Notes under the pieces: model-generated
The model's input: the letters and a program-made list of their open reading frames with translations, nothing else
Databases searched by the model: none
Told to the model about the DNA's origin: nothing
Shown: piece by piece, positions 36,415-61,396 of the stretch
Position numbering within the stretch: position 1 is the first letter of the stretch
Layout: the number at the start of each line of letters is the position of its first letter
DNA from: Geopseudomonas sagittaria
GTDB lineage: Bacteria > Pseudomonadota > Gammaproteobacteria > Pseudomonadales > Pseudomonadaceae
Assembly: GCF_900115715.1 (NCBI RefSeq)
Contig: NZ_FOXM01000007.1
Location: 1 to 64,000, forward strand
Direction of reading: 5' to 3'
DNA length: 64,000 bases
Translations under genes and position numbers: made by a program

Positions 36415-36444
36415 CACATGTAAGACATGGTTTTCACACATGTG
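36415..36444 (+). promoter_or_regulatory. Inverted repeat in the divergent caiB / yjfI intergenic region
   Basis: CACATGT (36415-36421) and ACATGTG (36438-36444) form a perfect 7-bp inverted repeat with a 16-base spacer. The second arm lies within a palindromic CACATGTG. It ends 18 bases before the yjfI-like start and lies within the 153-base gap between divergent operons, so it is a candidate operator for either. Confidence 0.45.
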
Positions 36445-36462
36445 ATGTTCTAGCCTCAAGGC

Positions 36463-37095
36463 ATGGACAGCAAATCGTCGGCCTACTACCAACGCCTATA
36501 CCGCCAGCGCCTGCGCGAGCAGGGCCTGCTGAAGAAGGAAGTATGGATACGGCCCGAGCATGCTCCAGTGCTCGCGGCCATGGAACGGAAACTGCGCCAG
36601 CCCGGCGAGGGTCTGGCCTCAAGGGAGGAGGGAGGTATGAGCATGCCCAGGTTGTGGACCACCGGCGAGCTGCACGCTGCGCTGGCGCAGGTCGATCTGT
36701 TCAGGGACGGACGAGCGAGCATGGAACTGCTGCAGGGCGCCGAGCCCAGCCTGCATGTGACCCTGCACGAGTACGGCGATCTGCCACTGTTCCTCGCCGT
36801 GTTCGGCGAGCAGATCGTGGTCGAGGCCCTGCTCTGGCCGCAGGCGGACGTGCGCGATGCGGCCGCCTTCAACGAGGAAGTGCTGCGCACCCACAAGCTG
36901 TTCCCGCTTTCCAGCATCGGTCTGGAAACCCTGCCCGACGGCCGCAGCTGCTACCAGATGTTCGGAGCCCTGAGCGCTGCCTCGGAGCTGGCCAGCGTGG
37001 TGTGCGAGATCGAGATGCTCGCCGACAACGTGATCAAGGCCACCGAAGCCTACGAAGGTTTCCTGATACCCAGCGCCGAGGAGAGCCGCGCATGA
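36463..37095 (+). CDS. DUF2170 (YjfI-like) protein
   Basis: This is the first gene of the PspA/flotillin module. The 210-residue protein has a short N-terminal part (YYQRLYRQRLREQGLLKKEVWI, about residues 8-29) that resembles a ribbon-helix-helix DNA- or partner-binding arm. From about residue 62 a DUF2170 domain follows (LWTTGELHAALAQVDLF..., FLAVFGEQIVVEALLWP). DUF2170 genes are commonly paired with pspA-like genes, such as yjfI-yjfJ in E. coli; the molecular role is unknown. The stop overlaps the pspA start (ATGA). Confidence 0.82.
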   Translation: MDSKSSAYYQRLYRQRLREQGLLKKEVWIRPEHAPVLAAMERKLRQPGEGLASREEGGMSMPRLWTTGELHAALAQVDLFRDGRASMELLQGAEPSLHVTLHEYGDLPLFLAVFGEQIVVEALLWPQADVRDAAAFNEEVLRTHKLFPLSSIGLETLPDGRSCYQMFGALSAASELASVVCEIEMLADNVIKATEAYEGFLIPSAEESRA

Positions 37096-37793
37096 ACGTC
37101 TGGATCAAGTTGCTGACCGCCCTGCGCGGCGGCGCCAACGAAGCGGGCGAGGCTCTGGTGGACAGCCAGGCGCTGCGCATCCTCGACCAGGAAATTCGCG
37201 ACGCCGACCTCGAGCTGCGCCAGTCGCGCGAGGCGCTGGCGGAGATCATGGCCCGGCAGAAGCTGGCCAGCGAGCGGGTCAGCCGCAGCGAGGCCCAGGT
37301 CGCCGAGTACGAGCAGTACGCGCTCAAGGCGCTGGCCGCCGACAACGAGGCGCTGGCCACCGAGGTGGCGGAGAAGATCGCCACTCTAGAAGCCGAGCTG
37401 GCCAGCGATCGCGAGCAGGCCGCAGGTTTCGCCGCCAGCGTGGCACGCCTGCGCCAGGCGGTGGGCCAGGCCGAGGGACACATCCGCCGCCTCAAGCAGC
37501 AGGTCGACACCGTCAAGGCCACCGAGAGCGTGCAGCGCGCCCAGCTGGCCGTGGCCCAGCGCCACGGCGGCTCGCAGGCGAAACTGCACACCGCGGTGGA
37601 GTCGCTGGAACGCATCAAGCAGCGCCAGGCCGAGCGTGCGGCGCGCCTGGAGGCCGAGGCCGAGCTGGCCGCCGAGCAGCCGCAGGACAGCCTGGAAGGC
37701 AAGCTGCGCGCCGCCGGCATCGTGCCGGACAACGCCAGTGCCGCCAGCGTGCTGGCGCGGCTGAAGGGCAAGGCAGCCAATCAGCAGTCCTGA
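37092..37793 (+). CDS. pspA: PspA/IM30 family protein
   Basis: PspA/Vipp1 proteins are bacterial ESCRT-III relatives that polymerise on the inner membrane and protect its integrity. The 233-residue protein is almost entirely alpha-helical coiled coil (about residues 25-205). It has the N-terminal amphipathic segment MNVWIKLLTALRGGANEAGE and a low-complexity hinge near the end (EAEAELAAEQPQDSLEGKL). The coupling to a DUF2170 gene and not to pspBC indicates the YjfJ-type branch of the family and not the classical Psp operon. Confidence 0.88.
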   Translation: MNVWIKLLTALRGGANEAGEALVDSQALRILDQEIRDADLELRQSREALAEIMARQKLASERVSRSEAQVAEYEQYALKALAADNEALATEVAEKIATLEAELASDREQAAGFAASVARLRQAVGQAEGHIRRLKQQVDTVKATESVQRAQLAVAQRHGGSQAKLHTAVESLERIKQRQAERAARLEAEAELAAEQPQDSLEGKLRAAGIVPDNASAASVLARLKGKAANQQS

Positions 37794-37809
37794 GCGGCTG
37801 ACTGGATAC

Positions 37810-37838
37810 GGCGGAGCCGTCCGGCTCCGCCCCTTGTT
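37810..37838 (+). terminator. Hairpin between pspA and the YqiJ-like gene
   Basis: GGCGGAGCC / GGCTCCGCC, a perfect 9-bp stem with a four-base loop, is followed by CCTTGTTT. It can act as a partial terminator that lowers expression of the three downstream genes relative to pspA. Confidence 0.55.
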
Positions 37839-37855
37839 TCAGGGACAGGAACACG

Positions 37856-38494
37856 ATGGAAATCTTCTTGCAAAGCGCCCTGGCGTTTCCCACCGCGCTG
37901 TTCAGCTTCCTGCTGAGCGTGGCGATCCTCTACTGGCTGGTCGCTGCCCTCGGCATCCTCGACGTGGACGTACTCGACGGCGACTTCGGCCCCGATGGCG
38001 AAGGCCTCGAACTGGAGGGGCTCGCCGGCCTGCTGCTCAAGCTCGGTCTCGGCGGCGTGCCGGTGACCTTGGTGCTGACCCTGCTGGTGTTCTTCGCCTG
38101 GTTCGCCAGCTACTTCATCGAACTGCTACTGCTGCGCCACCTGCCGCTGGGCTGGCTGCGCTATCCGCTGGGCCTGGCGGTGGCGGCGGGGGCCCTGTTG
38201 CCGGCGGTACCGCTGACCGCCGTGCTGTGCCGGCCGCTGCGCCGGTTGTTCCGCAAGGTCGAGGCGCCTACCGCCCGCTCGCTGCTCGGCCAGGTGGCGC
38301 GGGTGCGCAGCGGCACGGTCACCGCGCAGTTCGGCGAGGCGGACCTCGACGACCTGGGTGCCGGACTGATCCTGCGCGTCCGCGCCGACGCGGTGCAGGG
38401 CTTCAAGCGTGGCGACCGCGTGGTGTTGCTGCAGTACCTGGAGGGCGAGCACGCCTACCGGGTGGTCAGCGAAGACGAATTCAAGGGCCTGTGA
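37856..38494 (+). CDS. YqiJ/DUF1449-like membrane protein with an OB fold
   Basis: Members of this group are NfeD-like partners of flotillins. The 212-residue protein has three membrane regions: about 8-30, 66-88 around VPVTLVLTLLVFFAWFASYF, and 100-122. A C-terminal soluble beta domain follows (LLGQVARVRSGTVTAQFGEA..., RGDRVVLLQYLEGEHAYRVV), resembling an OB fold. It precedes the flotillin gene by 30 bases, like yqiJ-yqiK in E. coli. Confidence 0.85.
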   Translation: MEIFLQSALAFPTALFSFLLSVAILYWLVAALGILDVDVLDGDFGPDGEGLELEGLAGLLLKLGLGGVPVTLVLTLLVFFAWFASYFIELLLLRHLPLGWLRYPLGLAVAAGALLPAVPLTAVLCRPLRRLFRKVEAPTARSLLGQVARVRSGTVTAQFGEADLDDLGAGLILRVRADAVQGFKRGDRVVLLQYLEGEHAYRVVSEDEFKGL

Positions 38495-38524
38495 GCCGTA
38501 CATCCATAAGGAGATGATGAAAAA

Positions 38525-40600
38525 ATGTTCGAGATTCTGATGCCCTTCGCGATCGGGGTTGGCATGGTCTTCCTGCTGATCCTCGGCTTCTTCGTGCTGT
38601 TCAAGGCCTTCTACATCAAGGTGCCGCAGGGCACCGCGCTGATCGTCAACGACATGTCGGCGCAGCCCAAGGTGCACTTCACCGGCGCGCTGGTCTACCC
38701 GGTGATCTACAAGAAGGAGTTCATGCAGATCTCCCTGATCACCCTGGAGATCGACCGCCGCGGCAAGGACGGCCTGATCTGCCAGGACAACCTGCGCGCC
38801 GACATCACCGTGGCCTTCTACCTGCGGGTCAACGAGACCCAGCAGGACGTACTCAAGGTGGCCAAGGCCATCTGCGCCGAGCGCGCCTCCGACCGCGGCG
38901 CGGTCAACGACCTGTTCAACGCCAAGTTCTCCGAGGCGCTGAAGACCGTCGGCAAGCGCTTCGACTTCGTCCAGCTGTTCGAGGAGCGGCAGAGCTTCCG
39001 CGACCGCATCGTCGAGTTGATCGGCAACGACCTCAACGGCTACGTCCTGGAGGACGTGGCCATCGACTACCTAGAGCAGACGCCGAAGAGCTCGCTGGAC
39101 CCGACCAACATCCTCGACGCCCAGGGTATCCGCAAGATCACCGAGCTGACCGCGGCGCAGAACGTCATCACCAACGACCTGGAGCGCAACGAGGAGCTGG
39201 CGATCAAGAAGAAGAACGTCGAGACCCGCGAGGCGACCCTGGCCCTGGAACGCCAGCAGGCCGACGCCGAGGCGCGCCAGCAGCGCGAGATCGCCACTCT
39301 GCGCGCCCGCGAGCAGGCCGAGACCCTCAAGGTGCAGGAGGAGGAGCGCCTCAAGGCTGAGCAGGCGCGCATCCAGACCCAGCAGGAGCTGGACATTCGT
39401 GCCGAGAACCATCAGCGCGAGGTGGAAGTGGCGCAGCAGAACCGCCAGCGCGCGGTGGTGATCGAGGTGGAAAAGGTCACCCGCGCCAAGGATCTGGAAA
39501 TCGTCGCCCGCGAGCGCGAGGTGGAGCTGCAGCGCATCGAGAAGGAAAAGGCGCTGGAGGAACAGCGCAAGAACATCGCCAGCGTGGTCCGCGAGCGGGT
39601 GGCGGTGGAGAAGACCGTGGCCCAGGAGGAGGAACGCATCAAGGAGGTGCGCGAAGTCTCCGAGGCCGAGCGCCTCAAGCAGGTCACCGTGCTCAACGCC
39701 CAGGCCGAGGCCGAGCAGGAGCTGGTGCGCCAGGTCAAGCAGGCCGAGGCCGACGAGACCCGCTCGCGGCACAAGGCGGTGGAAATCAACACCCTGGCCC
39801 AGGCCGAGCTGGAGGCGGCGGCCAAGCAGGCCGAGGCGAAGAAGAAGCTGGCCGAGGGCATCGAGGCCGAGCGCGCCGCGCCGGGGCTGGCCGATGCGCG
39901 GGTGCGCGAGGTGACCGCGGCGGCCATGGAGAAGGAAGGTCTGGCCGACGCGCGCGTGAAGGCCGAGCAGCTGATTGCCGAAGCGCGCGGCGCGCAGGAA
40001 AAGGGCCTGGCCGAGGCCCGCATCATCGAAGCCCAGGCGCAGGCCAAGGAGAAGGACGGCCTGGCCGAGGCCAAGGTGCTGGAGGAGAAGCTCGGCGCCC
40101 AGGCGCGCGGCGAGGAGCAGCTGGGCAGCGCCAAGGCCAAGGCCACCAAGGACCTTGGTCTGGCCGAGGCCGAGGTGCTGCTGCAGCGCTTCAGCGCCGA
40201 GGCCGAAGGCCTGGGCAAGAAGTTCGGCGCCCTCGACGAGCTCAGCGACAGCGCCCGCCAGCACGAGGAGTTCCGCATGCAGCTGGAGAAGAACTTCGAG
40301 GAGTCGATGGCCAGCATCGCCGCCAACCAGGAGATCGCCAAGGAGCAGGCCGAGGTGCTGTCCGCCGCGCTGTCCAAGGCCAAGATCGAGATCGTCGGCG
40401 GCGAGGGCGACTTCTTCAACTCCTTCGCCAAGTCGCTGTCGGTGGGCAAGGCCATCGAGGGCGTGGTCGGCAAGAGCCCGGTGGTCCAGGAAGTGCTGGC
40501 GCGGCTGATGTCCGGCAAGGGCGCCGCGCCCAAGCCTGTCGAGCCGAAGACCGTCGAAGCCAAACCCGCCGAGCCGCTGGTCGACAAGACCCCGGCCTGA
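38525..40600 (+). CDS. yqiK: Flotillin-family SPFH protein (YqiK-like)
   Basis: Bacterial flotillins are membrane scaffolds that organise functional membrane microdomains. The 691-residue protein has one N-terminal membrane helix (about 5-28), an SPFH/PHB domain (about 35-215) and then a very long charged coiled coil (about 220-560) rich in A-E-A-K-type repeats such as EKEGLADARVKAEQLIAEAR. A C-terminal region (VLSAALSKAKIEIVGGEGDFF) follows, with a Pro/Lys-rich tail. The ribosome-binding site AAGGAG is 12 bases upstream. No catalytic site is expected. Confidence 0.9.
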   Translation: MFEILMPFAIGVGMVFLLILGFFVLFKAFYIKVPQGTALIVNDMSAQPKVHFTGALVYPVIYKKEFMQISLITLEIDRRGKDGLICQDNLRADITVAFYLRVNETQQDVLKVAKAICAERASDRGAVNDLFNAKFSEALKTVGKRFDFVQLFEERQSFRDRIVELIGNDLNGYVLEDVAIDYLEQTPKSSLDPTNILDAQGIRKITELTAAQNVITNDLERNEELAIKKKNVETREATLALERQQADAEARQQREIATLRAREQAETLKVQEEERLKAEQARIQTQQELDIRAENHQREVEVAQQNRQRAVVIEVEKVTRAKDLEIVAREREVELQRIEKEKALEEQRKNIASVVRERVAVEKTVAQEEERIKEVREVSEAERLKQVTVLNAQAEAEQELVRQVKQAEADETRSRHKAVEINTLAQAELEAAAKQAEAKKKLAEGIEAERAAPGLADARVREVTAAAMEKEGLADARVKAEQLIAEARGAQEKGLAEARIIEAQAQAKEKDGLAEAKVLEEKLGAQARGEEQLGSAKAKATKDLGLAEAEVLLQRFSAEAEGLGKKFGALDELSDSARQHEEFRMQLEKNFEESMASIAANQEIAKEQAEVLSAALSKAKIEIVGGEGDFFNSFAKSLSVGKAIEGVVGKSPVVQEVLARLMSGKGAAPKPVEPKTVEAKPAEPLVDKTPA

Positions 40601-40633
40601 CCGCCGCCCCGTGCAGGGGCCGCACGCCGCTCC

Positions 40634-40690
40634 GTAGGAGCGAATTCATTCGCGACCTGTAGCGCAGGTCGCCGATGAATCTGCTCCTGC
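40634..40690 (+). repeat. REP-like imperfect palindrome between the flotillin and ATPase genes
   Basis: Nested arms pair: GGAGC (40637-40641) with GCTCC (40683-40687), ATTCAT (40644-40649) with ATGAAT (40675-40680), and GCGACCTG (40652-40659) with CAGGTCGC (40665-40672), around a five-base loop. The start GTAGGAGCGAATTCATTCGCG is of the Pseudomonas REP type (quoted arms only as evidence). It fills the 157-base gap and may stabilise or terminate the upstream mRNA. Confidence 0.7.
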
Positions 40691-40757
40691 GACACGAACT
40701 CCTCATCCGGCGCGGCCTTGGCCGCGCCCCGTCACGTAACCTTCAGGAAGAACAACG

Positions 40758-43700
40758 ATGTCGGATGCCCAGGACGCAAGCCGCGAACAGGACATGGTGG
40801 ATCAGGCCGTCGCCCAGGGCGGCGCCTACGAGGTGCTGCAGCGGCGCCTCGCCGAGCAGGGCCAGCGCCTGCGCCAGGGCAGCGATGCGCTGAATGCCCA
40901 GCGCCTCGCCGAGTTCGGCGCCAGCGAGATGGCGGTGCTCGGCCGGGTGCGCATCCGCACCGAGAACAACTGCATCGCCCGCGATATCGTCCAGGTCGGC
41001 GACTGCCTGCTGTTCGGCTACAACGTGTTCCTCGGCCTCAAGCCGGAAACCCGCATCGAGGACGTGTTCTCCCTGTACCGCCTGACGGCAGAGGCCGAGG
41101 GCTACGAGGCCGAGCCGCTGCCGCTGGAGGGCAGTTTTCTCGGCCAGGCCAGCTTCGTGCAGGACTTCCGCGAGCTGTACACCTACTACAAGAACACCCG
41201 CCTGCTGCAGCTGGTGGTGCGCGACGGCAAGCTGCTGGCCAGCTTCCAGATCGGCGAGCGGCTGACCGACATCCGCGTGTTCCGCTGGTCGATCGCGGTG
41301 GACGGCGGCGAGGTGCGCTACATCGACAACCGCGGCGAACGCGACATCGCCCTGCCGGCGCCCTACGACTTCGAGTGGCAGAAGGCCACGCGCGAGATGG
41401 TGGTCAACGGCCGCCATCCGCATCTGAACATCCTCGATACGGTGTTCGTCGAGACCATCGGCGGCGACCTGACCATCAAGATCGAGAACAACACCGAGGA
41501 CGGCCTGGGCATCTACCGCGAGGCGGTGGTCGACCAGACCCAGTCGCTGGACGACGCACAGATCGAGTTCGCCCGCCTGGGCAGCCTGATCCTCCTCAAG
41601 GTGCTGCCGTACCGCGAGGAGCAGTGGCGCTACCTGGTGTTCAACGGCCTGACCCGCCAGGTCGAGCGCATCGACGCCATCGGTCAATCCTGCGTGCAGC
41701 TGCCCGAGGACCACGGCATCGTCTTCCCCGGCGGCTACTACCTGCAGAACGGCGAGTCGAGGACCTTCGAACAGCCGATGGCCGGCATGCGCTTCAAGCG
41801 CGCGGTGCGCTCGCCCAACGGCGAGGACGTGCTGTACATCTTCTACCAGCCGGAGGAGGGCCGTGCGGCGCTGTTCACCTACAACCTGATCGAGCGCCAG
41901 CTGCACAGCCCGATCTTCGGCCACGGCTACGCGCGCCTGGAGGACGGGCGCATGGTGATCTTCGCCGCCGAGGGCGCGGAGCCGACGCGCATCCACCCGA
42001 TGCAGATCTGGCAGACGCCGTTCGCCAGCGTCGAGTTCGCCGCCCGCCAACCGGCGCGCAGCGGCTTCCTCGGCCGCATCGGCAACGCCGAGCTGGTGCG
42101 CGGGGTTTCCGAGCTGCGCAACCTGTGCCGCGAGATCGACGCCCAGGCGGTGTCGGTGCAGCGCTACAGCCAGCTATGCCAGGCCGTGCGCCGGCTGTTC
42201 GACGCCCACCACTGGCTGGGCGCCGCCGAGGTCGGCGAACTGGCGCCGCTGCTGCGCGAGATCGCCGCCACCGCCGAGCGGGTGCTCGACGAGTTCGAGA
42301 AGGTCGAGAGCATCCGCCAGCAGTCGGCGCGCGCGATGGCCGAGGCCGAGACCCGCCAGCAGGCGCTGCTCGCCGGCCTGCACGTCGACAGCTGGGACGT
42401 GGTGGCGGCCTTCGTCGAGGCGCTGAACGCGCTGACCGCCCAGCGCGGCCTGCTGCTGACCATCCGCGACTACCGCTACATCGATGTGGCGCGCATCGAC
42501 GCCATGGAGAGCGCGCTGCTCGAGGCCCAGGCGCAGGTCGCCGCGGCCACCGCGCGCTTTCTCGCCGGTGAGCGGGCGCTGCAGCCCTACGTCGAGCGCC
42601 TGACGCAGCTCGACGCGGCGGCGCAGCAGGCGCCGAGCGTGGCGCTGCTGGCCGAGCCGCTGGCCGGCCTGCAGACGATGGCCGCTGATCTGGACATGCT
42701 GTCCAACCTGATGGCCAGCCTGGCGATCGACGACGCCACCGAGCGCACGCGCATCGTCGAGGCGATCTCCGAGCTGTACGCCCGTCTCAACCAGGCGCGC
42801 GCCCGTGCCGAGCAGCGCCGCAAGGGCCTCGGCTCGGCGGAGACGGTCGCCCAGTTCGGCGCCCAGTTCAAGCTGTTCGGCCAGGGCATCACCAGCGCCC
42901 TTGGCCAGGCCATCGACCCCGAGCGCTGCGACGAGCAGCTGGCGCGCCTGCTGCTGCAGCTGGAGGAGCTGGAAAGCCGCTTCGGCGAGCAGGAGCAGTT
43001 CCTCGCCGACATCCTCGCCAAGCGCGAGGAGCTGCTGGAGACCTTCGAGACGCACAAGCAGGCGCTGCTCGACGAACGCCAGCGCCGCGCTCAGGGCCTG
43101 CAGGAGGCGGCGCGGCGCATCCTCGACAGCCTCAGTCGGCGCACCGCGCGCCTGGCGAGCATGGAGGAACTCAACGCCTTCTTCGCCGCCGACCCGCTGA
43201 TCCTCAAGCTGCGCGACCTGGCCGTGCGCCTGCGCGAGCTGAAGGACAGCGTCAAGGCCGACGACCTGGAGGCGCGTCTCAAGGGCGCCCGCGACCAGGC
43301 GGTGCGCGCCCTGCGCGACAAGAGCGAGCTGTTCGAGGAAGGCGGCAACCTGATCCGCCTCGGCCGCCATCGCTTCAGCGTCAACGCCCAGGAGCTGGAC
43401 CTGACCCTGCTGCCGCGCGGCGAGCAGCTGTGCCTGCACCTGACCGGCACCGACTTCATCGAGCCGCTGGTCGATGCCGAGCTGGAGGGGCTGCGCGCGT
43501 TCTGGCAGGCCAGCCTGGAGTCGGAGTCGGCCGAGCTGTACCGCGGCGAATACCTGGCCGGCGAAGTGCTGGCCGCCGCCGAGCGTGGCGAGGGCGGACT
43601 CGATCTGGATCGCCTCAAACTGCTGCTCGCCCAGCCCGAGGCGCTGGTGCGCGCGGTGCGCGAGTTCGCCGCGCCGCGCTACAAGGAAGGCTACGAGAAG

Positions 43701-46001
43701 GGCATCCACGACCAGGACGCCGCCGCGATCCTCGCCTGCCTGCTGCCGCTGACCGGCAGCGCCGGGCTGCTGCGCCACGCGCCGCTGCCGCGCGCCTTCG
43801 CCTGCCTGTGCTGGGAGCGTCTGCGCGGCCAGGAGCAGCCGGCGCAGTGGCCGGAGCGGGCGCGCACCAGCCGGCACATCCGCCAGCTGTTCGGCCGCGA
43901 CGACGGCCTGCGCAGCCTGCAGGGCGAGATCGCCGCCGCGATGCAGGCCTTCCTCGCCGAACAGCCGCTGGGCCTGGACGCGACCGTGGTGGCCGAGGCC
44001 GCCGAGTACCTGGTGCAGGAACTGGCCGCCGAGCGCGTCGAGTTCACCTTCAGCAAGTACGCCCGCCAACTGCAGGACGCCCTGCGCGCGCGGCTGGTCG
44101 AGGCGCGCATGTGGGACGACTACCGCCAGGCGCTGGCGCGCCTGGGCGAGCGTCCGGCGGCGCAGTGGACGCTGGCGCTCGACTGGCTGCACGGCCTGTG
44201 CGGCCAGGCCGAGTTCGCCGCGCTGGCCGCCTACGCACCCGAGGCGGCGGCGCTCGAGCTGCTCGGCGAGGACCTGCCGCGCCGGGTCACCGAGGTCGAC
44301 CTGCGCTTCACGGTGGAGGGTCTGCTCGGCGAGCACCCGCGCATCCGCGAGCAGCGCCTGGAGCTGGCGCTGGACGAGCTGTTCGCCCGCCTGCGCGCCC
44401 ACCGCGAGCACTACCTGCCGGGCCTCACCCGCTACCAGGCGCTGCGCCAGGCGGTGATCGCCCGCGAGCGCACGGCGCTGCGCCTGGCCGAGTTCAAGGC
44501 CCGTCCGCTCAGCTCCTTCGTGCGCAACAAGCTGATCAACGACGTCTACCTGGGCTTCATCGGCGACAACCTGGCCAAGCAGATGGGCAGCGCCGGGGAG
44601 AACAAGCGCAGCGACCTGATGGGCCTGCTGATGCTCATCTCGCCGCCCGGCTACGGCAAGACCACCCTGATGGAGTACGTCGCCCACCGCCTAGGGCTGA
44701 TCTTCATGAAGATCAACGGCCCGGCGCTCGGCCACGAGGTGCGCTCGCTCGACCCGGCGCAGGCGCCCGACGCCACCGCCCGCCAGGAGCTGGAGAAGCT
44801 CAACCTGGCGCTGGAGATGGGCAACAACGTGATGCTCTACGTCGACGACATCCAGCACACCCACCCCGAGTTCCTGCAGAAGTTCATCTCGCTGTGCGAC
44901 GGCACCCGGCGCATCGAGGGGGTGTGGAAGGGCCGCACGCGCACCTACGACATGCGCGGCAAGAAGTTCTGCGTGGTGATGTCCGGCAACCCCTACACCG
45001 AGTCCGGCGAGGTGTTCAGGATTCCCGACATGCTGGCCAACCGCGCCGACATCTACAACCTCGGCGACACCCTCGGTGGTATGCAGGAGGCCTTCGCCCT
45101 CAGCTACATCGAGAACGCGCTGACCTCCAACCCGGTGCTGGCGCCGCTGGCCACCCGCGACATGGCCGACCTCTATCGCCTGGTGGCCAGGGCCGAGGGC
45201 CGCGAGTTCTCCGCCAACGAACTGTCGCACGCCTACAGCGGCGCCGAGCTGGACGAGATCACCGCCACCCTGCAGCGCCTGATGCAGGTGCGCGACGTGG
45301 TGCTACGGGTCAACCAGCAGTACATCGCCAGCGCCGCCCAGGCCGACCAGTACCGCACGGAGCCGCCGTTCCGGCTGCAGGGCAGCTACCGCAACATGAA
45401 CAAGATGGCCGAGAAGATCAGCGCGGTGATGAACGACACCGAGCTGCTGCAGCTGATCGCCGACCACTACCAGGGCGAGGCCCAGCTGCTCACCAGCGGC
45501 GCCGAGGAGAACCTGCTCAAGCTCGCCGAGCTGCGCGGCAACCTGACGGCCGAGCAGGCGGCGCGCTGGGGGCAGATCCGCGCCGACTTCCGCCGCGCCA
45601 AGGCCATGGGCGGCGGCGAGGCCGACGTCGGCGTGCGCGTGGTGGCCCAGCTGCGCGACCTGGCCGACGGCGTGCAGGGCCTCGGCGCGAGCCTGGCGCA
45701 GCCGCCCGCGCCGATTCCCTGGGCCGAGCTGCTCGCCCGCCTGCAGGCGCTGGCCGAACAGCGCCCGCAGGTCGAGGTGGCCGTGGCGGCGCCGCCGCAG
45801 GCGGACATCCAGGGTCTGCTCGAGGGGTTGGCGCAGTCGCTGCAGGGCAGCTTCCTGCCGCTGCTGCGCACCATCGAAAAGAAGGGTGACATCGGCCTGC
45901 GCATCCACAAGCACCTGCACGATCTGTCCCGGGACATGCGCGAACTGCGCCTGCGCCACGGCCGCGAGGTCCGCGACGAGACGGAGGACATGCCTGGCTG
46001 A
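40758..46001 (+). CDS. Giant AAA-type ATPase of the so-called DNA repair ATPase family
   Basis: This is a very large (1747-residue) cytoplasmic ATPase at the end of the PspA/flotillin module. Residues 1 to about 460 are a beta-rich N-terminal region (RIRTENNCIARDIVQVGDC). The middle (about 460-1150) is mostly coiled coil. An AAA domain from about residue 1240 to 1480 has Walker A GYGKTT (about 1298-1303), Walker B VMLYVDDIQH (about 1358-1367) and a sensor-like SGNP near 1411. A helical C-terminus follows. The family is annotated by homology as DNA repair ATPase without firm evidence; its position beside PspA and flotillin suggests a membrane-linked role. No frameshift or truncation is seen. 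Confidence 0.88.
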   Translation: MSDAQDASREQDMVDQAVAQGGAYEVLQRRLAEQGQRLRQGSDALNAQRLAEFGASEMAVLGRVRIRTENNCIARDIVQVGDCLLFGYNVFLGLKPETRIEDVFSLYRLTAEAEGYEAEPLPLEGSFLGQASFVQDFRELYTYYKNTRLLQLVVRDGKLLASFQIGERLTDIRVFRWSIAVDGGEVRYIDNRGERDIALPAPYDFEWQKATREMVVNGRHPHLNILDTVFVETIGGDLTIKIENNTEDGLGIYREAVVDQTQSLDDAQIEFARLGSLILLKVLPYREEQWRYLVFNGLTRQVERIDAIGQSCVQLPEDHGIVFPGGYYLQNGESRTFEQPMAGMRFKRAVRSPNGEDVLYIFYQPEEGRAALFTYNLIERQLHSPIFGHGYARLEDGRMVIFAAEGAEPTRIHPMQIWQTPFASVEFAARQPARSGFLGRIGNAELVRGVSELRNLCREIDAQAVSVQRYSQLCQAVRRLFDAHHWLGAAEVGELAPLLREIAATAERVLDEFEKVESIRQQSARAMAEAETRQQALLAGLHVDSWDVVAAFVEALNALTAQRGLLLTIRDYRYIDVARIDAMESALLEAQAQVAAATARFLAGERALQPYVERLTQLDAAAQQAPSVALLAEPLAGLQTMAADLDMLSNLMASLAIDDATERTRIVEAISELYARLNQARARAEQRRKGLGSAETVAQFGAQFKLFGQGITSALGQAIDPERCDEQLARLLLQLEELESRFGEQEQFLADILAKREELLETFETHKQALLDERQRRAQGLQEAARRILDSLSRRTARLASMEELNAFFAADPLILKLRDLAVRLRELKDSVKADDLEARLKGARDQAVRALRDKSELFEEGGNLIRLGRHRFSVNAQELDLTLLPRGEQLCLHLTGTDFIEPLVDAELEGLRAFWQASLESESAELYRGEYLAGEVLAAAERGEGGLDLDRLKLLLAQPEALVRAVREFAAPRYKEGYEKGIHDQDAAAILACLLPLTGSAGLLRHAPLPRAFACLCWERLRGQEQPAQWPERARTSRHIRQLFGRDDGLRSLQGEIAAAMQAFLAEQPLGLDATVVAEAAEYLVQELAAERVEFTFSKYARQLQDALRARLVEARMWDDYRQALARLGERPAAQWTLALDWLHGLCGQAEFAALAAYAPEAAALELLGEDLPRRVTEVDLRFTVEGLLGEHPRIREQRLELALDELFARLRAHREHYLPGLTRYQALRQAVIARERTALRLAEFKARPLSSFVRNKLINDVYLGFIGDNLAKQMGSAGENKRSDLMGLLMLISPPGYGKTTLMEYVAHRLGLIFMKINGPALGHEVRSLDPAQAPDATARQELEKLNLALEMGNNVMLYVDDIQHTHPEFLQKFISLCDGTRRIEGVWKGRTRTYDMRGKKFCVVMSGNPYTESGEVFRIPDMLANRADIYNLGDTLGGMQEAFALSYIENALTSNPVLAPLATRDMADLYRLVARAEGREFSANELSHAYSGAELDEITATLQRLMQVRDVVLRVNQQYIASAAQADQYRTEPPFRLQGSYRNMNKMAEKISAVMNDTELLQLIADHYQGEAQLLTSGAEENLLKLAELRGNLTAEQAARWGQIRADFRRAKAMGGGEADVGVRVVAQLRDLADGVQGLGASLAQPPAPIPWAELLARLQALAEQRPQVEVAVAAPPQADIQGLLEGLAQSLQGSFLPLLRTIEKKGDIGLRIHKHLHDLSRDMRELRLRHGREVRDETEDMPG

Positions 46002-46153: not shown

Positions 46154-47314
46154 ATGACCCTGCATCTGCCGACCCTGCTGCTGCTCGACATCTGCGTGCT
46201 TGCCCTGCTCGGCGCGTTGATGCTGCATGCCTGGCGACGCAGCGAGAACGAGGCGACCCTTGGCTGGATGGCCGGCATGTTGCTGCTGGCCTCGCTGGGC
46301 ACCCTGGTGGTGAGCCTGCGCGGCATCGGGATGGACAGCCTGTCCATCGTGCTCGGTCAGGCGCTGCTGCGCCTGGCGGCGGGGTTTGGCTGGACGGCGA
46401 TGCGCGTGTTCGCTGGCCGGCGACCCTGCTGGCCGGCCATCGTCGGCGGTGCTCTGCTGTGGGCTCTGCTGTGTCTGTGGCCGCATTTCATGAGTTCGCT
46501 GCCGTGGCGGGTGACGATCGTCACCCTGCTCACCGTCCTCTACAGCGTCATGGCGGCCTGGGAGCTGTGGCGCGCGCGTCGCCAGCTGCAGGCGGCCATC
46601 CTGCCGGCGGTGGCGTTGTCGCTGATGCATGCGCTGTTCTGCGCAAGCCTGCTGCTGGTGGATAGCGGCCAGGCCATCGAGCGGGTGTGGAGCGGGCTGG
46701 ACGACAGCTTCGTGACCTGGCGCTTGCTGGAGGCCTTCCTGTTCGCGATCGGCATCGCCTTTGTCACCCTGGCCATGGTGCGCGAGCGGGCTGAAGTGCG
46801 TTTGCGCGCGGTGGCCAACTGCGATCCGCTGACCGGCATCGGTAACCGGCGCGCCTTCATGGCCAGCGCCGAGGCCCTGCTGGCGGACTGCCGGCGCACG
46901 GAGCGCCCGGCGGCTCTCCTGCTGTGCGATCTCGATCACTTCAAGCTGGTCAACGATCGCCATGGCCATGCCATGGGCGATGCGGCGCTGATCGGCTTCG
47001 GCCGCGTGCTGAGCCAGAGCATCCGCCAGTCCGATGTCTGCGGCCGGATCGGCGGCGAGGAGTTTGCCTGCCTGCTGCCCGATGCCAATGCCGCGCAGGC
47101 CGAGCTGGTGGCCGAGCGCATCCGCCTGGAGTGCAGCGAGCTGATGCCCGATCCGGCGCTGTGCTTCAGCGTCAGCATCGGCGTCGCCGAGGTGGCCCAG
47201 GCCGGCTACGAGCTGCCGCGCTTGCTGGCGCTGGCCGACCAGGCGCTGTACCGGGCCAAAGCCAACGGGCGCAACCGGGTCGAGCATTACGCCGCACAGC
47301 CGCTGCCAGCCTGA
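46154..47314 (+). CDS. Membrane-bound diguanylate cyclase (GGDEF protein)
   Basis: The enzyme makes cyclic di-GMP from two GTP. The 386-residue protein has six or seven N-terminal membrane helices (about residues 5-205) without a recognisable ligand pocket, and a C-terminal GGDEF domain (about 220-378). The active-site motif is GGEEF at 300-304, with RQSD at 291-294 as an intact inhibitory I-site, so product feedback is expected. CDLDHFKLVND with the metal Asp is present. It is preceded by a CRP/Vfr-like site, suggesting cAMP control. The sensed signal is unknown. Confidence 0.92.
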   Translation: MTLHLPTLLLLDICVLALLGALMLHAWRRSENEATLGWMAGMLLLASLGTLVVSLRGIGMDSLSIVLGQALLRLAAGFGWTAMRVFAGRRPCWPAIVGGALLWALLCLWPHFMSSLPWRVTIVTLLTVLYSVMAAWELWRARRQLQAAILPAVALSLMHALFCASLLLVDSGQAIERVWSGLDDSFVTWRLLEAFLFAIGIAFVTLAMVRERAEVRLRAVANCDPLTGIGNRRAFMASAEALLADCRRTERPAALLLCDLDHFKLVNDRHGHAMGDAALIGFGRVLSQSIRQSDVCGRIGGEEFACLLPDANAAQAELVAERIRLECSELMPDPALCFSVSIGVAEVAQAGYELPRLLALADQALYRAKANGRNRVEHYAAQPLPA

Positions 47315-61276: not shown

Positions 61277-61282
61277 CTCAAT

Positions 61283-61396
61283 GCGTTCAGGGAATAACGC
61301 AGCCGGCAGGAAGCCGGTCAGGACGTCGCCGGAGGCGGCACACCAGGATGGTGGATAGGGAAAAAAAGAGCGGCGGGGCAACCCGCCCTTTTTTTT
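61283..61396 (+). ncRNA. rsmZ: RsmZ-type small regulatory RNA
   Basis: RsmZ sequesters the translational repressor RsmA/CsrA. The roughly 114-base RNA has seven GGA motifs (near 61291, 61309, 61321, 61331, 61346, 61353 and 61359). At least four are in hairpin loops: GCGTT/AACGC around CAGGGAAT, CCGGC/GCCGG around AGGAA, CGCC/GGCG around GGA, and CACC/GGTG around AGGAT. The Rho-independent terminator GGCGGG/CCCGCC (61372-61377, 61382-61387) is followed by eight T. Location behind rpoS, as in P. aeruginosa, and the exact GacA site support the call. The 5-prime end is estimated within a few bases. Confidence 0.92.
61371..61396 (+). terminator. rsmZ intrinsic terminator
   Basis: GGCGGG and CCCGCC form a 6-bp stem with a four-base loop, followed by one C and eight T. 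Confidence 0.9.

Follow-up and report, generated by a model that had tools for sequence, protein, structure and literature searches.

PspA belongs to the bacterial relatives of ESCRT-III, and little has been established about its control beyond the classical PspF system. The locus described here raises the question of how a pspA gene is regulated that stands in a row with genes for a DUF2170 protein, a YqiJ/NfeD-like membrane protein, a flotillin, and a giant ATPase, and what this ATPase might work on. The locus lies in a stretch of 64,000 nucleotides from Geopseudomonas sagittaria (assembly GCF_900115715.1, contig NZ_FOXM01000007.1, positions 1 to 64,000), which is called the window in the following. 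A sequence-only reading of the window had placed five plus-strand genes in a row at 36463-46001, and all of them are present at these positions. They are a bac-type operon as in Pseudomonas aeruginosa, without bacF. We consider it likely, with a probability of roughly 0.7, that BacA, the DUF2170 protein, acts as a PspA-linked autorepressor and chaperone that is made from two translation starts and controls a machine composed of flotillin, NfeD-like protein, and a MoxR-like ATPase.

Regulatory signals were sought by comparing the regions upstream of bacA. The comparison is based on 112 loci, comprising 8 loci from a phylum draw of 398 genomes (the ATPase is found in 8/398, the window's own genome included), the loci of 24 further family genomes (26 of the 148 family genomes encode the ATPase), and the best 80 of 549 relatives, which favour close kin. 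The loci were annotated by searches built from the window genes. Two pairs of identical sequence (L024/L041 and L034/L057) are counted twice among the 112, and nine cut contigs were excluded from the presence counts, which leaves 103 uncut loci. A long BacA is encoded at 69 loci; one of these (L073) was dropped because it gave no match to the start motif, and the remaining 68 were reduced to 49 dereplicated loci with less than 90% identity. At least one copy of the palindrome ACATGT is found upstream of bacA in 48/49 dereplicated loci, compared with 2.5% of shuffles. The spacings between the palindromes cluster at 13 and at 21-24 bp. The commonest one, 22 bp, is also that of the window. At this spacing one palindrome lies above the -35 position and its partner in the stretch from -35 to -10. 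Pairs with a spacing of 12-25 bp were found in 64/69 loci with a long BacA, in 0/23 loci without BacA, and in 0/11 loci with a short BacA. This is the co-occurrence of operator and proposed DNA-binding domain that is expected of an autoregulated repressor (64/69 versus 0/34). On the supported branches of the ATPase tree five independent contrasts can be drawn, which are concordant in 4.7/5 cases on average and never opposed. In the 4.6 Mb genome of the window ACATGTN{15,18}ACATGT occurs once, at bacA, and the strict form of the pair occurs in 20/148 family genomes, all of them among the 26 with the ATPase and 19 of them at the bac locus. In genome G407 (L127, about 1995-2022) a second pair with 22 bp spacing precedes an unrelated open reading frame (ORF) of 188 residues away from the bac locus, which may be either chance or a second target.

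What could read these palindromes is suggested by the N-terminus of BacA. The long BacA sequences open with a conserved block like SSAHYQRLYRQRLREQGLVKKEVWILPEH...ERKLRQP, which is connected to the DUF2170/CesT-like domain by a variable linker. Averaged over positions, the top residue accounts for a share of 0.78 in residues 3-46, 0.40 in the linker (residues 47-58), and 0.71 in residues 65-201 of the 49 dereplicated sequences. Substitutions within residues 4-46 fall on the first, second, and third codon positions at 24, 12, and 64%, and therefore the block is translated and under selection as a protein. The crystallised BacA (8Q8O) does not include this block. Its residues 3-143 correspond to residues 63-203 of the BacA of locus L032, to which it is identical in 140/141 positions. 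The block is a putative DNA-binding domain. A search of the 398 genomes with the block yielded 6 matches. Because a frame of 331 residues in locus L132 (G082) opens with a similar sequence, SSAEYQRRYRERKKVQG, and continues with a remainder that looks unlike DUF2170, the BacA-type block may be a mobile domain.

Among the 6 block matches is a long DUF2170 protein paired with PspA in G130, a genome that gave no match to the ATPase, and the genus of this genome offers a second comparison. DUF2170 homologues were found in 97/199 genomes of this genus, and all 70 DUF2170 loci that were read have a PspA match beside them. Dereplication left 48 loci. In 45 of these the block was recognised by a regular expression (7/45 are of the bac type), one (L200) has an intact block that the expression missed, and two (L202 and L203) do not have an intact block. 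The palindrome TYAC(AT/GC)GTRA is present within 330 bases upstream in 44/45 loci, and two or more copies in 29, compared with 0/2151 random 330-base stretches of the same loci; one of the 45 loci has none. The central dinucleotide follows the sequence of the block. Blocks with VKHETW, which have His at position 25, go with GC cores only (13/13), blocks with VKHEAW with one GC and one AT core each (2/2), and blocks with Arg or Lys at position 25 with AT cores only (29/30; the remaining one is the locus without palindrome). Of 15 genomes examined, seven have one double GC-type site, G706 has two, and the remaining seven have none; every one of these double sites is located directly upstream of a DUF2170 gene. 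The two sites of G706 precede a His-type paralogue and the bac locus. The bac operon of G706 does not encode an intact in-frame N-terminal block, while short BacA, PspA, and the trio of YqiJ-like protein, flotillin, and ATPase read through. In G649 the block is lost as well, no palindrome is found in 13 kb, and the trio is intact. Both genomes serve as natural tests of whether block and operator belong together. The pspA gene of G649 is split into two overlapping pieces (L206, 10860-11757), either by sequencing error or by decay.

The start signals of the long form were compared as well. A TANNNT sequence lies at -14..-11 of the long ATG in 42/49 dereplicated loci, compared with 13% in shuffles, and in 29 of those 42 it is accompanied by a -35 hexamer that matches in 4/6 positions or more at the best of a few spacings. 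A scan of the window with promoter consensus sequences reported no promoter at bacA. No ribosome-binding site was found before the long ATG (mean -1.5 kcal/mol, 0/49 loci at -7 or lower), and the long start of bacA is probably leaderless. The literature search for mapped leaderless starts returned none for bacA among the matches listed. The long starts of the other DUF2170 types do not look leaderless by eye, so this feature seems to be special to the bac type. In contrast to the long start, the internal ATG at Met59 is well provided. This linker column is Met in 44/49 sequences and then always encoded by ATG, and the first residue of the 8Q8O chain is the one that follows the corresponding Met. 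The pairing to the anti-Shine-Dalgarno sequence averages -8.8 kcal/mol at this position (75% at -7 or lower) versus -1.65 kcal/mol for the 131 other ATGs in frame. Lineages differ in the frame in which the GGAG core is read (AAG GAG or A GGA G, for instance). Synonymous shuffles gave a mildly positive result (mean z of -1.04, 41/44 on the strong side). In the genus draw, all 46/46 dereplicated loci, 8 of them of the bac type, have an internal ATG in the linker, with mean Shine-Dalgarno strengths of -7.3 to -12.4 by type, values that are flattered because the best of the linker ATGs was taken. Two BacA products are predicted to be present in the cell.

The following model combines these data with published findings on the operon of P. 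aeruginosa. A transposon mutant of bacA contains 6.1- to 13.5-fold more of the BacB-F proteins, and a strong but unpublished interaction of BacA with BacB, the PspA protein, has been mentioned (PMC10948618). AlphaFold2 predicts a contact between the two proteins with a probability of 0.981 (PMC13092808). In the model, the YqiJ/NfeD-like protein and flotillin would form a scaffold in the inner membrane on which the giant MoxR-like AAA+ ATPase works, and PspA would be a detachable ESCRT-III-like membrane effector. Long BacA would read the ACATGT palindromes over the bacA promoter and repress its own operon. Short BacA, which consists of the CesT-like domain alone, or the same domain within the long form, would bind PspA. 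As the domain that binds PspA would be common to both forms, the amount of free repressor could be set by the state in which PspA is found at the membrane: if membrane damage draws PspA into assemblies, or if unassembled PspA accumulates, the share of free repressor would shift and the operon would be adjusted. DNA binding by BacA, its sensing of PspA, and the substrate of the ATPase are what we infer here. There is, in our view, an even chance that this extends to a whole, hitherto unrecognised class of PspA-coupled switches, in which the long DUF2170 genes would encode two proteins each. The block, as a small helix-strand-helix fold, would read 10-bp palindromes of the form TYAC(AT/GC)GTRA, and its residue 25, Lys/Arg or His, would decide on the central dinucleotide. 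In this class the long form, leaderless in bac, would be the repressor, and the short form from the internal start a PspA chaperone tuning it. Such switches may replace PspF/sigma-54 control in many Pseudomonas, and loss of the block together with a switch of the core may rewire an operon, as in G706.

Several observations weigh against this model. The ACATGT pair is missing from 5/69 loci with a long BacA, two of the 34 other loci (L014, L114) have a single ACATGT before a gene, and five independent contrasts cannot reach a significance of 0.05. The link between His25 and GC cores is mostly confined to one clade and thus represents few independent events. The block has only weak relatives. 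The UrfF plasmid repressors match 11/13 block members with a best E of 9.9e-5 (the window's own block reaches 18.1 of 100 bits, below the curated cut-off), and the MazE-like family PF11455 matches 9/13 with a best E of 0.011 (none of the 13 reaches the curated cut-off, and the window's own block gives no match). A comparison of profiles with four MazE-like proteins is no more than suggestive (probability 25%, E 7.6e-4, 32 columns). A search of Pfam with the window's single block returned nothing and a search of the PDB sequences with the block profile nothing convincing, and the monomer model of the block contains a helix at 6-19, a stretch of low confidence, and a helix at 31-45. The counts of -35 hexamers stand without a shuffled control, the -35 hexamer of the window is weak (TGGTTT), and a median of 27% of the synonymous shuffles match the strength of the internal Shine-Dalgarno sequence. 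The effect of the bacA transposon could also be caused by the transposon itself raising downstream expression. Finally, deletion of the flotillin PaFlo3 in PA14 reduces biofilm by only about 20% (PMC13086221).

Two other explanations of the upstream region have to be considered. The ACATGT sites could belong to an unlinked global regulator, and the BacA block could do something else. This would agree with the fact that DNA binding by BacA is a prediction and that the relatives of the block are weak, but a global regulator would hardly explain that the exact pair is unique in the window's genome, that the strict pattern is restricted to genomes with the ATPase, that none of the short-BacA loci has a pair, and that the core of the operator tracks the sequence of the block, the one bac locus with a broken block having another core. 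We therefore regard it as improbable. Alternatively, sigma-54 could drive the operon and BacA might only be a chaperone or post-transcriptional regulator, like the ExsC-type chaperone/regulators that it resembles. An RpoN site upstream of bacA has indeed been proposed (PMC2587700, PMC10948618). However, a strict scan for the -24/-12 elements reported candidates at 2/69 long loci (L033, L081) and none in the window, although a weaker site would escape such a scan, and the TANNNT element has a fixed place in most loci and is often accompanied by a -35 hexamer. Strict sigma-54 control was set aside because this strict scan did not show a conserved -24/-12 site, and sigma-54 as the driver of the operon seems quite improbable. 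Autorepression by the long BacA would account best for the association of block and operator.

The second part of the question concerns the machine itself. The giant protein had been described from its sequence as a 1747-residue ATPase with a Walker A near residue 1300, and the motif SPPGYGKTT is located at residues 1295-1303. The Walker A motif and two motifs that we take to be Walker B and sensor-1 are invariant across 58 ATPase sequences. Pfam reports DUF3686 (E 6e-206, residues 38-485), DUF7902 (E 7e-27), and AAA (E 2e-5), and does not report a protease domain. Among the matches listed for the modelled core (residues 1174-1666), the nearest folds are the MoxR ATPases CbbQ/NorQ, which occupy the top 10 places (16.5 to 14.9 in VIA-align), the tenth being 1.0 above the next. 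The best p97/Cdc48 match in the same list is at 13.1, and Vps4 is not among the best 50 listed, which is an absence from a list only. A beta-hairpin (212-217/220-225 of the model) precedes the sensor-1 strand. The core thus models as a MoxR-type AAA+ domain of the CbbQ/NorQ type, and the analogy to Vps4 is weakened by this. A search of the PDB sequences with the AAA core mainly returned the P-loop of p97/Cdc48 and RuvB, and these matches were judged misleading with respect to the ATPase clade.

Possible partners of the ATPase are indicated by its gene neighbourhood. In the phylum draw, the YqiJ-like and flotillin genes precede the ATPase gene in 8/8 loci. Three of the 8 have a BacA-PspA pair like that of the window, and one more (L014) encodes a short BacA-like ORF beside an ORF read as coiled coil. 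The sequence-only reading had suggested a search for co-occurrence. Among the 103 uncut loci, flotillin and YqiJ, identified by homology to the window genes, are each encoded upstream of the ATPase in 102, as expected if NfeD-like and flotillin genes are paired. PspA is found in the neighbourhood of 81 and BacA of 80. Only at one locus, from Moraxella (L115), were both flotillin and YqiJ not found. YqiJ, flotillin, and ATPase are therefore a constant unit, and BacA and PspA are a detachable front part. Because the order of the unit recurs in 102/103 loci, the five genes in a row are not a chance observation. That the ATPase is mainly coupled to PspA was rejected in view of these constant partners. 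In a relative (L012, 4917-10010) the ATPase gene is in two pieces with one internal TGA, which is a sequencing error or a broken gene.

These results bear on two further views of the ATPase. The sequence-only reading had proposed a machine that remodels membranes, its large ATPase acting on polymers of PspA or flotillin much as Vps4 disassembles ESCRT-III. The presence of a clear PspA/ESCRT-III family member, the vicinity of PspA in most uncut loci, the intact AAA motifs, and the ESCRT-like roles proposed for PspA together with AAA+ ATPases (PMC11237479) are consistent with it. It does not fit with the optional nature of PspA next to constant flotillin and YqiJ partners, nor with the core whose nearest listed folds are CbbQ/NorQ, with p97/Cdc48 lower and a hairpin before sensor-1. 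The Vps4-like action is thus rather unlikely, and the earlier interpretation as a whole is partly supported. A role in DNA repair would follow from the Pfam text for DUF3686 ("ATPase involved in DNA repair"). The weak RuvB matches to the P-loop in the Pfam, NCBIfam, and PDB searches and the presence of recJ two genes downstream could be cited in favour of it, but the adjoining flotillin and YqiJ-like genes and the MoxR folds argue against it. "DNA repair ATPase" was rejected as a label only, and we give this function hardly any credit. The MoxR-like core and the constant flotillin and NfeD partners rather point to the remodelling of protein complexes on an SPFH scaffold.

The features of the locus are listed in the table. 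The identities of the first two products as DUF2170 and PspA/IM30 proteins hold (Pfam, E 3e-51 and E 6e-49), and the first also matches the NCBIfam equivalog NF050185 ("biofilm formation regulator BacA") with E 2e-98 and 327.9 bits, above the cut-off of 300. The PspA of the module is the only PF04012 match in the genome. The genes for the YqiJ-like and flotillin proteins are there, but neither product has a convincing match at E up to 0.1 in either Pfam or NCBIfam, the sole library match of the YqiJ-like protein being a phage-protein model below its cut-off. Both labels rest on the names given by the sequence-only reading, on gene order, and on papers, in which the P. aeruginosa counterpart of bacC is termed a short NfeD homologue (PMC13086221). 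At five loci (L035, L037, L038, L040, L067) an extra ORF of about 218-254 residues with partial similarity to flotillin is located between the YqiJ and flotillin genes. The punctuation had been read correctly: bacA and pspA overlap by ATGA (GCATGAACG at 37090), the gaps after the pspA, YqiJ-like, and flotillin genes are 62, 30, and 157 bases, and both the hairpin and the palindrome resembling repetitive extragenic palindromes (REP) were found.

Features of the bac-type locus of the window, with positions counted from the first letter of the stretch
Feature	Position	Strand	Basis
Putative operator 1, ACATGT, above the -35 position	36416..36421		co-occurrence of the pair
Putative operator 2, ACATGT, at 22 bp from operator 1, in the stretch from -35 to -10	36438..36443		
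Putative -10 box TAGCCT, its end six bases ahead of the long ATG	36451..36456	+	TANNNT position
bacA long form, 210 residues: N-terminal block and DUF2170/CesT-like domain	36463..37095	+	ORF and family models
N-terminal block of BacA (residues 4-46), conserved; putative DNA-binding domain	36472..36600	+	conservation; absent from 8Q8O
Internal Shine-Dalgarno-like run AAGGGAGGAGGGAGG	36621..36635	+	-12.6 kcal/mol
bacA short form, 152 residues, starting at the internal Met59 codon; corresponds to the crystallised construct	36637..37095	+	putative start
pspA/bacB, PspA/IM30 family	37092..37793	+	PF04012
Perfect hairpin, 10-bp stem, between pspA and the YqiJ-like gene	37810..37831	+	
bacC, YqiJ/NfeD-like membrane protein	37856..38494	+	reading frame; P. 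aeruginosa counterpart
bacD, YqiK-type flotillin, counterpart of PaFlo3 of P. aeruginosa	38525..40600	+	reading frame; PMC13086221
REP-like imperfect palindrome, 27-nucleotide arms, 81% paired, between flotillin and ATPase genes	40633..40691		
bacE, 1747-residue DUF3686 ATPase	40758..46001	+	reading frame, Pfam, motif reading
AAA+ core region modelled (residues 1174-1666)	44277..45755	+	structure model and motif alignment

The sixth gene, the phospholipase D (PLD)-like bacF, is not present at the window locus. In its place after the ATPase gene, where L032 has its PLD-like gene, a gene for a GGDEF diguanylate cyclase is located (46154-47314). The ORF cluster that includes the PLD-like gene of L032 occupies this place at 39 loci, and the GGDEF arrangement is common to 4 loci, two of which have the same sequence. 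A search of the window's genome with the PLD-like protein of a relative, run without a positive control, did not give a match. Far from the module, the small RNA PrrB/RsmZ was found at 61282-61396 (81.4 bits) as the sole Rfam match in the window. The tRNA scan of the window was empty, and the PADLOC matches look like coiled-coil noise and were discarded.

The sequence-only reading did not know of an experimental description of the whole module; the operon has been studied before. The genes PA3729-PA3732 of P. aeruginosa have been named bac (PMC2587700), and reverse transcription PCR extended the operon to the six co-transcribed genes bacA-F, in the same study in which the BacA crystal structure 8Q8O was solved (PMC10948618). 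The neighbourhood has been described as a class, CesT/Tir-PspA-band7/flotillin-AAA+, which includes AAA+ proteins with coiled coil and beta-propeller as well as a PspA-less form (PMC11237479). Deletion of PaFlo3 did not make a difference to pyocyanin, alkaline protease, or elastase (PMC13086221). In addition, B. subtilis offers a precedent for PspA linked to a membrane SPFH protein (PMC8581546), and in E. coli the deletion of a single base 80 bp upstream of yjfI is accompanied by strong expression of yjfIJKL (PMC12492005). Because the operon, the neighbourhood class, and the flotillin deletion have been published, the module itself is not new. The parts of the DUF2170 literature at hand mention neither a DNA-binding block, nor operators, nor an internal start, and the regulatory reading of BacA and the MoxR-like core of the ATPase are new to us. 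If the model is true, many Pseudomonas and some other proteobacteria would control PspA by a fusion of repressor and chaperone (97/199 genomes with DUF2170), the published crystal structure of BacA would represent only a part of the protein, and the proposed sigma-54 promoter would probably not be the conserved one. The operator and the key residue make the proposed circuit directly testable.

Compared with known systems, the window is closest to bacABCDEF of P. aeruginosa (PA3732-PA3729 and two genes; PA14_16140-16200), which has the same order of DUF2170, PspA, NfeD-like, flotillin, and ATPase genes according to L032 and the papers. The assignment of bacE to the ATPase and bacF to the PLD-like protein in P. 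aeruginosa is deduced from L032 and is thus provisional. The P. aeruginosa operon differs in its crystallised BacA, which begins at the internal Met, and in the sigma-54 promoter proposed for it, while the window has the GGDEF gene in place of the PLD-like gene. For the published operon class, the available parts of the description mention no DNA-binding block, operators, internal start, or MoxR-type core (PMC11237479). The proposed circuit would work like PspF-PspA-PspBC of E. coli, where a regulator that is physically tied to PspA likewise controls the transcription of pspA. Unlike in the PspF system, the regulator would be a CesT-like repressor encoded inside the operon, and its sites overlap a sigma-70-like promoter. 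The solved chains of the MoxR ATPases CbbQ and NorQ comprise about 250 residues, whereas here the AAA domain is the C-terminal part of a protein of 1747 residues. NorQ-type ATPases work with VWA partners, which is NorD according to the structure titles, and CbbO is the VWA partner of CbbQ. FtsH is a membrane protease; unlike FtsH, the window ATPase has a MoxR-like core, and Pfam reports no protease domain in it. The HflKC-FtsH and SPFH-NfeD pairs would work like the machine proposed here, as they likewise combine a membrane SPFH scaffold, an AAA+ enzyme, and an NfeD-like partner (PMC2636767). Finally, the UrfF and MazE-like repressors are weakly similar to the block of BacA, below the curated cut-offs, and in contrast to them BacA fuses this block to a CesT-like domain that is linked to PspA.

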